Below, in pieces: positions 39,736 to 41,239 of a stretch of DNA of 46,959 nt (positions are counted from its first letter, which is position 1; the number at the start of each line of letters is the position of its first letter). This stretch comes from Clostridia bacterium DTU068 (lineage in GTDB: Bacteria > Bacillota > DSM-12270 > Thermacetogeniales > Thermacetogeniaceae). The translations under genes were made by a program, and so were the position numbers. The notes under the pieces were generated by a model, which made no database searches, was not told the DNA's origin, and saw nothing but the letters and a program-made list of their open reading frames with translations. The stretch is from the NCBI GenBank assembly GCA_001513545.1, contig LFTQ01000039.1:1-46959 (forward strand). The letters run 5' to 3'.

Positions 39736-40122
39736 TTAGGGAACCAGCCGTACCACCACTTCCAGAACCGCAGTTAAAATAGGCAGTGCTAACAAAAGGA
39801 TCAAAACCTTACCTGCCATCTCAATCTTACTGGCAATAGTACCCTCACCTGCATCCCGGCAGATCTGTGCACCGAATTCAGCGATATAGGCAATACCCAG
39901 TATTTTTAAAAGTGTTACAAAATAGAAATCGTCAATGCCTGCCTTATGGGTCAGGTCACGAAAAACCGTGATGATCTCCCCCATTTTACTAAGCACCATA
40001 ATAAAAATAAGTACTCCAAACCCCAGTGCCAGCAGCAGGGCTATTTCACGGCGGGTTTCCCGCAGCAGTACTGCGAAAACAGTAACTACAAAAGCAAAAC
40101 CTACAATATATAAGATCTCCAT
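39736..40122 (-). CDS. spoIIIAD: SpoIIIAD
   Basis: The frame starts at 40158, but the ATG at 40122 with GAGGTGAGG upstream gives 128 aa and the family-like start MEILYIVGFAFVVTVFAVLLRETRREIALLLALG. The protein has three to four membrane segments. SpoIIIAD is a small integral membrane subunit of the channel, like SpoIIIAC. The upstream 380 nt that normally would be a few bases is filled by a repeat-bounded element, so its own ribosome site is intact although the operon is interrupted. Confidence 0.92.
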   Translation of the reverse strand: MEILYIVGFAFVVTVFAVLLRETRREIALLLALGFGVLIFIMVLSKMGEIITVFRDLTHKAGIDDFYFVTLLKILGIAYIAEFGAQICRDAGEGTIASKIEMAGKVLILLLALPILTAVLEVVVRLVP

Positions 40123-40148
40123 AGTCCTCACCTCTACCGACCGATCAT

Positions 40149-40178
40149 GACCGTTCACCGGGACTGTCCCCCTGATCG
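40149..40178. repeat. Left copy of the 30-bp direct repeat
   Basis: Differs from the copy at 40461-40490 at a single base (T for A at the sixth position). The core contains GGGAC-TGT-CCCC and ends in CTGATCG. Confidence 0.9.
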
Positions 40179-40217
40179 CGCGGAGGGACAGGTTGACCGC
40201 GCGATTTTGTTTTCTTT

Positions 40218-40230
40218 GTTTTATCCCTGC
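40218..40230. repeat. Left 13-bp inverted repeat
   Basis: GTTTTATCCCTGC is the exact reverse complement of 40448-40460. Confidence 0.85.
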
Positions 40231-40447
40231 GCTGGCGGCTTAGGCTCCGGTTTAACTTGCCCTAAGACTTGTCGCAGGCGACAGCTGACCGGCTCCTATG
40301 ACGCCATCCATTTTGGAAGTCGGATGCCGGAAGTCTGTTGTCAGAATTAAAATTCAGAATTAAAATGTTGAATTAGATGTCATAACCGTTCTTATTATCT
40401 AGAAATTTTCGACTAGTTAGTAACAACCTGCGCAGGCCGCTGTGCCT

Positions 40448-40460
40448 GCAGGGATAAAAC
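40448..40460. repeat. Right 13-bp inverted repeat
   Basis: GCAGGGATAAAAC pairs perfectly with 40218-40230 and directly abuts the right 30-bp direct repeat. Confidence 0.85.
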
Positions 40461-40490
40461 GACCGATCACCGGGACTGTCCCCCTGATCG
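40461..40490. repeat. Right copy of the 30-bp direct repeat
   Basis: Twenty-nine of 30 bases match 40149-40178. It is followed by a tandem 10-bp repeat, CTGATCGGGC twice (40484-40503), immediately before the spoIIIAC stop. Confidence 0.9.
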
Positions 40491-40505
40491 GGCCTGATCG
40501 GGCCC

Positions 40506-40703
40506 TTAGAAAAGGTGAAAAACAGAACGCACCATATTGAACAGATCATTGATCAACCGCACCACCATGATCAGCACCACAACCACACCTGCCAGTGTCA
40601 GCATCTGTGCCTGTTCTTCCTTATCGGCTTGTTTGAGGATGATATTCAGCACAGAAATGAGGATACCCAACCCTGCAATTTGAAAGATCAGATTGACATC
40701 CAT
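40506..40703 (-). CDS. spoIIIAC: SpoIIIAC
   Basis: The frame opens at 40772 inside spoIIIAB, but the ATG at 40703 with AAAGGGGGT upstream gives the 65-aa protein expected for SpoIIIAC: MDVNLIFQIAGLGILISVLNIILKQ and a second membrane segment (about 37-56). It resembles the N-terminal half of SpoIIIAD. Its stop is separated from spoIIIAD by the inserted element, with the right-hand repeat beginning a few bases after the stop. Confidence 0.92.
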   Translation of the reverse strand: MDVNLIFQIAGLGILISVLNIILKQADKEEQAQMLTLAGVVVVLIMVVRLINDLFNMVRSVFHLF

Positions 40704-40717
40704 GATCATTACCCCCT

Positions 40718-41239
40718 TTAAAGCAGCAGCAGCACAATGCTGATACCTATTAGAAAACCTCCATACTGCCACAGGCGAACATTTTTCTCCTGATCACGCC
40801 GGGCATTTTCCTCTTCCTTTTGCAAATGCAGAGTTGTAAGGGTAATATTTTTATGCTGTTCATAGCGGTCCGACCCTCCCAGCAGATCTCCGAAAGCAGA
40901 TAAAATCGCATAATCATCCTGGTTCAGTGCAGTAGAAGGAAATGTTTCATTCAATGCTTTTTTCCAGGCCTCAGCAGTTGTCAAACCCTGATTGTCAGTG
41001 AGGTATTCCCCAGCTCTCCTGAAGATCTGCACGATCGCGCCGCCCCCTGTTTGGCCTATCTTTTTCAAGACCACAGGAAGGGGGGTAGCGGCATAAACAA
41101 TCTCAGTATCCAGCATCTGCAGTGCCTCCTGTAGTGAACGCAGTTCTGCAGTGCGCCGGGAAAAATAAGATGCCACCCTGATGCCGGCCATTCCCAGAGA
41201 AGAGATCACAAAAAGTGCACCTATCATCTTCCACATCAT
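40718..41239 (-). CDS. spoIIIAB: SpoIIIAB
   Basis: The 173-aa protein has an N-terminal membrane segment (about 5-23), a helical soluble domain resembling the type II secretion GspF fold (RSLQEALQMLDTEIVYAATPLPVVLKKIG, about 34-62) and a C-terminal membrane segment (about 155-172). SpoIIIAB is thought to work with the ATPase SpoIIIAA in assembling the channel. It starts 19 nt after the spoIIIAA stop. Confidence 0.93.
   Translation of the reverse strand: MMWKMIGALFVISSLGMAGIRVASYFSRRTAELRSLQEALQMLDTEIVYAATPLPVVLKKIGQTGGGAIVQIFRRAGEYLTDNQGLTTAEAWKKALNETFPSTALNQDDYAILSAFGDLLGGSDRYEQHKNITLTTLHLQKEEENARRDQEKNVRLWQYGGFLIGISIVLLLL

Follow-up and report, generated by a model that had tools for sequence, protein, structure and literature searches.

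A REP-flanked hairpin of the TwoAYGGAY type between spoIIIAC and spoIIIAD in Clostridia bacterium DTU068, probably an old and tolerated composite insertion

The closest described systems are the TwoAYGGAY RNA family (Rfam RF01731), REP/REPIN repeats with RAYT (TnpA-REP), and MITEs together with the families with terminal inverted repeats (TIRs) that lie beside Y1 transposases ('TIRYTs'). The original screen, in its accessible text, lists TwoAYGGAY as probably an RNA and not cis-regulatory (PMC2864571), and a role as a CsrA-binding sRNA in Clostridia has been proposed (PMC4333381, accessible text). In the accessible portions of the literature naming TwoAYGGAY we found no statement on a dispersed or mobile nature of the family, and the Thermacetogenium genome paper mentions repeats, in its accessible portion, only as CRISPRs (PMC3551663). 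As far as the available sections of the respective papers describe these systems, the locus presented here shares high-copy short palindromes, a one-sided inverted doublet and a Y1 gene adjoining the same repeats with REP/REPIN systems (PMC3116915, PMC8266576), and a short, non-coding, multicopy nature with perfect TIRs with MITEs and TIRYTs (PMC3733652). In contrast to REP/REPIN systems, the window's REPs lack GTAG at the palindrome foot (the tetranucleotide is absent from 40141-40205 and 40461-40503, as read from the sequence), a motif whose weight varies among REP systems (PMC8266576, available sections), and a conserved 206-bp hairpin, not a short spacer, separates them. Unlike in MITEs and TIRYTs, no target-site duplication was found in the listed flanks, and inspection by eye of the pairs of TIR cores revealed no TIR-bounded parent. 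Rfam files TwoAYGGAY as cis-regulatory, whereas here the hairpin is multicopy, has no orientation bias, usually neighbours REPs and becomes inverted at its site.

The window, i.e. the whole stretch of 46,959 nucleotides that was analysed, comes from a genome (G000) of 2,196,654 bases in 222 contigs that is 89.7% complete. The spoIIIA operon occupies its minus strand, with SpoIIIAE and SpoIIIAB genes (Pfam) flanking the spoIIIAD/spoIIIAC pair. Between the two genes of this pair, REP palindromes of the GGGACTGTCCC type stand on either side of a hairpin with 13-bp TIRs (Table 1). A reading made from the sequence alone had described here a non-coding block of roughly 340 bp with near-identical 30-bp direct repeats, inverted repeats of 13 bp just inside them, a tandem 10-bp repeat at the edge and a surviving spoIIIAD ribosome site. 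Each of these parts was recovered; the block measures 383 bp, and the direct repeats extend over 33 nt with 94% identity at an offset of 312. The TwoAYGGAY RNA strand, in the Rfam sense, is the minus strand, the direction of the operon. The transcribed strand has a folding energy of −122.4 kcal/mol (z −4.25). No intrinsic terminator-like site was found versus 1.8 expected, and σ70-like promoters numbered two versus 2.0 expected.

Table 1 Parts of the insertion and its neighbouring genes, in window positions
Feature	Position	Strand	Basis and remarks
Whole insertion, spoIIIAC stop codon to spoIIIAD start	40123..40505	.	Non-coding, 383 bp; left edge includes the spoIIIAD ribosome site
spoIIIAD, intact	39736..40122	-	Pfam SpoIIIAC/AD match; ribosome site 40123-40135
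spoIIIAC, intact	40506..40703 (Pfam-matched gene given to 40706)	-	Pfam SpoIIIAC/AD match
spoIIIAD ribosome site AGAGGTGAGGACT	40123-40135	-	Intact, read from sequence
REP copy 1, GACCGTTCACCGGGACTGTCCCCCTGATCGCGC, spoIIIAD side	40149..40181	+	33 nt; repeat analysis; core in 83 genome copies
Second REP half, inverted, GGAGGGACAGGTTGACCGCGCG	40182..40205	-	Read from sequence; REPIN-like doublet with copy 1
Hairpin, assigned to the TwoAYGGAY type	40218..40460	-	243 bp; repeats, folding, genome copies; Rfam on orthologs L324, L135
Terminal inverted repeat GTTTTATCCCTGC	40218..40230	+	13 bp, perfect
Terminal inverted repeat GCAGGGATAAAAC	40448..40460	+	13 bp, perfect
'Long apex', apparently swapped	40312..40418	.	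107/107 bp identical to the G001 ortholog; G002 and G003 have the standard short apex
REP copy 2, spoIIIAC side	40461..40493	+	33 nt; repeat analysis
10-bp tandem duplication CCTGATCGGGC, edge of REP copy 2	40483..40503	+	Units 40483-40493 and 40493-40503

Both the repeat and the element have many other copies in the 2.2-Mb genome. The block gave 95 BLAST matches to it, the GGGACTGTCCC core occurs in 83 exact copies versus 2 of a reversed (not complemented) control pattern, and the fetched loci contain at least 29 hairpins with both ends (30 were called, one of them twice, and three more without a right end were dropped). Across the genus, the fetched loci hold 67 such hairpins (29 in G000, 24 in G001, 9 in G002 and 5 in G003), typically about 206 bp in length; the window copy is longer because it carries the long apex, common to a few other copies. 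In 19 of the 30 called hairpins, both flanks contain REP motifs (up to one mismatch) at a distance of no more than 100 bp; in four only the left flank does, in two only the right and in five neither. Of random 100-bp windows from the same REP-rich loci, 4.4% contain such motifs. The right hairpin-REP junction, GGGATAAAC[C/T]GACCGATCA, is constant in many copies, and the spoIIIAC-side REP of the window matches another G000 element (C154) with 98% identity over 48 nt. Inspection by eye of the flanks listed for the hairpin copies revealed no target-site duplication. Exact TTTATCCCTGC TIR cores occur at 33 sites of the genome, and no autonomous parent was noticed among their pairs, which were inspected by eye only. 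The hairpin also occurs in genera g3 and g5 (L107, L108, L131, L132 and others), once in tandem; there it is bounded by different, conserved termini (left CTGCCCTGAAAATACGTT, right GGTGCCGCCGGAGGCGGCGTGATGGTCTG), and exact GGGACTGTCCCCC is absent at the hairpins of both genera. Because of these other termini, the REP ends described here are not essential for the spread of the hairpin, which may predate or postdate the arrival of the REPs.

G000 also possesses transposase genes of the REP-associated kind that the sequence-only reading had in mind. It encodes two Y1 (PF01797) proteins, on contigs C192 and C17. The RAYT-type gene (C192:11823-12635) specifies a protein of 270 amino acids containing NHVHLLV, which we take to be an H-hydrophobic-H motif. 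On the 3′ side of the gene, some 250-350 bp beyond the stop codon (L061:2517-2583), lie REPs of the same kind as those of the window: the repeats downstream are GGGACTGTCCC and CAACCTGTCCC, and the GGGACAGGTTG type of inverted REP half, as at 40182..40205, adjoins this gene as well. The second gene (C17:14285-14620; L089:2896-3750) has a different palindrome downstream, of the ACAACCCCGTCCCCTTGTCA type, and such repeats also occur near several hairpins. Y1 genes were detected in 12 of 20 sampled genomes; none was found in G001 or G003, both of which are less than 85% complete. Hairpin termini of the sister genera (GCCGCC..GGCGGC and others), searched as exact patterns, were absent from the 16 Y1 loci scanned out of 29 listed.

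Although hairpins of G000 and its relatives match the RF01731 covariance model, the window copy itself does not, giving no match at E≤1 (40218..40460 was covered by 39900-40800) and none for locus L001 at E≤0.1. The G001 ortholog (L136), which has the long apex, likewise has no match. The orthologs at the same spoIIIA site in G002 and G003 pass the Rfam cut-off of 43 bits with 55.7 and 52.8 bits, as do the sister copies L115 (55.5 bits), L110 (46.2 bits) and L065 (45.2 bits); L107 is below it with 36.8 bits. Other loci scored 48.4 and 39.7 bits (L074), 38.4 bits (L111) or not at all (L112). Of the two AYGGAY loops seen in G002 and G003, only one, an ATGGAT, exists on the minus strand of 40218-40460. 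We assign the window hairpin to the TwoAYGGAY family by way of these sister copies, its failure to reach the cut-off being attributable to the swapped apex. The earlier 'MITE-like' reading missed that the inner part belongs to a recognised Rfam family. In all, G000 has 19 RF01731 matches, 11 of them above the cut-off, versus none in any of 14 control genomes. In a sample of the phylum, with nine candidates scored per genome, matches occur in 45 of 299 genomes (30 over the cut-off), and 31 of the 45 have at least two.

Covariation in the stem was assessed on a selection of 32 copies that represents several genera. Its cells are paired in 97.4% of cases, double changes occur in 17 of 50 pairs versus 7.5 in shuffles, and double-change cells number 70, whereas shuffles gave 19 and slid versions 3-7. 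These figures call for two cautions: kinship among sequences can by itself lift them above shuffles where there is no structure, and the structure was drawn from the same alignment. Further pair types were not above shuffles (33 versus 31.1; 61/500). G.T departures comprise 15 pair types (32 cells) and A.C departures 14 (19 cells), a balance that favours neither strand.

Of 41 genomes, 36 yielded SpoIIIAD, and the spacer was compared in 30 fetched loci. Including the stop codon, it measures 386 (G000), 418 (G002), 394 (G003) and 430 nt (G001) within the genus and 5-89 nt in every one of the 25 loci from outside the genus in which both genes could be read (L139, which has no spoIIIAC match, was excluded), with some of these lengths resting on extrapolated alignment ends. 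These lengths put the earlier statement that spoIIIA genes normally abut to the test, and the relatives outside the genus lack the block. Its presence in four of four members and absence from 25 of 25 loci outside show that the block is old, having entered a single time at the base of the genus. On account of the same short spacers, a conserved regulatory region of spoIIIA was rejected. Inside the genus no clean empty site was found, only occupied sites or partial deletions (G003), and hence recent hopping is not demonstrated; no instance of the composite transposing was observed. Two loci of genus g3 that were considered as an empty site (L168/L208) retain an element end and are not clean. 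The comparison to a MITE therefore holds for the TIRs, the non-coding nature and the copy number, and does not extend to mobility, for which a target-site duplication and a clean empty site within the genus are both missing.

At three of 13 distinct sites shared by at least two species, the hairpin is inverted in place. One of these lies between genes that we take, from reading their translations, to be purH and purD (L069:9437-9639, L122, L104, L128); here G000 and G001 have one orientation and G002 and G003 the other, and the inverted block extends about 50 bp past the TIRs. At the second, presumably ispE-gntR by the same reading (L077:943-1148 versus L105 and L130), the right flank is conserved up to the TIR. 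The inversion at L070/L312/L321 is less clean than these two. Orientation relative to the neighbouring genes, obtained by simple ORF calling with orthologs counted separately, could be assigned for 53 of the 67 elements (14 were dropped at a contig edge or with a gene too far away). In co-directional spacers, 17 of 40 hairpins are sense and 23 antisense (p 0.43); 11 further copies are in convergent and two in divergent spacers, so hairpins are rare where a spacer has two promoters. The copy at the spoIIIA site is in sense orientation in all four species.

The spoIIIA site itself bears the marks of later change. The flanking genes are 91-96% identical among the four species where comparable (the G003 contig lacks spoIIIAB and most of spoIIIAC), and pairwise identities are star-like. 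G000 and G001, which diverge by 7.9% outside the insert, nevertheless share an identical tract of 170 bp across the apex, a run that random placement of differences produced in 0 of 2000 trials. The REP stretches group the species differently, G001 going with G003 (119/121 on the spoIIIAC side). The spoIIIAC-side REP of the window has 35 of 45 aligned positions identical to its orthologs, with 76 gap columns; because on this side the REP stretches of the orthologs are longer and differ from it, the near-identity of the two window REPs probably reflects a later replacement in this species and not the original insertion. Considering (i) the 170-bp apex tract, (ii) the discordant grouping of the REPs and (iii) the match of the window REP to C154, segments appear to have been exchanged after insertion. 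Among the hairpin copies, all four combinations of arm variant and apex type occur, the rarest as a single copy (L080); the 'long' apex label of L073_10870 is false, as judged from its sequence.

Our preferred reading of the block, which we consider probable, is a composite repeat insertion that the genus ancestor acquired in a single event and that was later remodelled and is tolerated. It consists of a TwoAYGGAY-family hairpin of roughly 206 bp (243 bp here, with the swapped apex) between REP palindromes, and its point of entry lies between the stop codon of spoIIIAC and the ribosome site of spoIIIAD. The spread of the REPs was most likely driven in trans by the RAYT-type Y1 transposase, to judge from the REPs beside the C192 gene. 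Because REP-hairpin-REP units with constant junctions recur, the composite, and not the REP alone, probably multiplied as a unit. In the accessible text of the pertinent papers, template switching between inverted repeats is stated to yield in-place inversion (PMC8604942) and is described as leading to homogenised arms and inverted spacers (PMC8604942, PMC8794818). After insertion, this process would keep the arms complementary and could flip the middle, and segments would be exchanged between copies or species; the products of both are observed, and as mechanisms they appear to explain the remodelling best. In the spoIIIA mRNA the insert is predicted to fold into a stable stem that is untranslated and has no terminator signature; at most, it would tune the ratio of spoIIIAA-AC to spoIIIAD-AH mRNA. 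Tolerance of the insertion in the sporulation operon, which had been suggested on account of the ribosome site, is most probable; the flanking genes and that site are intact.

A different history, which we regard as unlikely, would involve two independent families: a MITE with the TIR GGTTTATCCCTGC, moved by another type of transposase, would have inserted into or beside existing REPs and not been carried by them. Clean TIRs at the five of 30 copies with no REP within 100 bp and the occurrence of the hairpin without this REP in the sister genera are consistent with it, whereas no consistent target-site duplication was seen, inspection by eye revealed no parent among the exact TTTATCCCTGC sites, and independent insertions would hardly produce hairpin-REP junctions that are constant across many copies. 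Less probable still, and in our judgement quite improbable, is that the block is a regulatory RNA of spoIIIA, whose two GGA loops bind CsrA and control the stability or translation of spoIIIAD-AH. The uniform sense orientation at this site, the Rfam scores of the G002 and G003 orthologs, the stem covariation, the published CsrA proposal (PMC4333381, accessible text) and a greater frequency of CsrA in RF01731 genomes (43 of 45 versus 170 of 254 without RF01731; kinship ignored) would agree with such a role. Against it speak the lack of an Rfam match in the window and G001 copies, the loss of one AYGGAY loop in the former, the empty site outside the genus, the absence of a genus-wide sense bias, the three orthologous copies inverted at other sites, and the strand-neutral G.T and A.C departures. 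An assembly artefact of this metagenome-assembled genome, conceivable given its 222 contigs and the proneness of repeats to misassembly, can be practically dismissed: four separate assemblies contain this insertion, with differences particular to each species.

A further alternative concerns the remodelling step only and is compatible with the insertion reading. Selection for folding, as single-stranded DNA for a transposase or as RNA, might have produced the stem covariation in place of template switching, and we give this close to an even chance, though somewhat below it. The almost complete pairing and the excess of double-change cells over both controls are what it would predict. It does not predict the in-place inversions at three of 13 sites, a stated product of template switching (PMC8604942, accessible text), the process that we prefer for this step. 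If covariation in palindromes does come from template switching, covariation alone would be weak evidence of an RNA.

Taken alone, the block would amount to a repeat that a sporulation operon has long tolerated. Its wider interest lies in the link between a 'structured RNA' from the catalogue, of unassigned function, and a dispersed repeat that has traits of mobile elements. We tentatively raise the idea, to which we lean less than to its contrary, that TwoAYGGAY is a phylum-wide dispersed hairpin and not a cis-regulatory RNA, one that takes host-supplied termini (REPs of a RAYT in this genus, others in the sister genera), inverts and swaps its apex. Its near restriction to CsrA-bearing genomes would then mean that it either exploits CsrA or became a scattered CsrA decoy. 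The comparison of CsrA between genomes with and without RF01731 (Fisher p 1.4e-5, kinship ignored) is a first distribution test of the CsrA proposal; CsrA is missing from two RF01731 genomes, G196 and G248, of which G248 is 75% complete. The CsrA match of G000 is much weaker (E 2.6e-14) than those of its relatives (about 1e-24) and is possibly cut by a contig end. Molybdenum/tungsten riboswitch matches were also observed near TwoAYGGAY copies, at L115:1805-1925 and L110:838-957.
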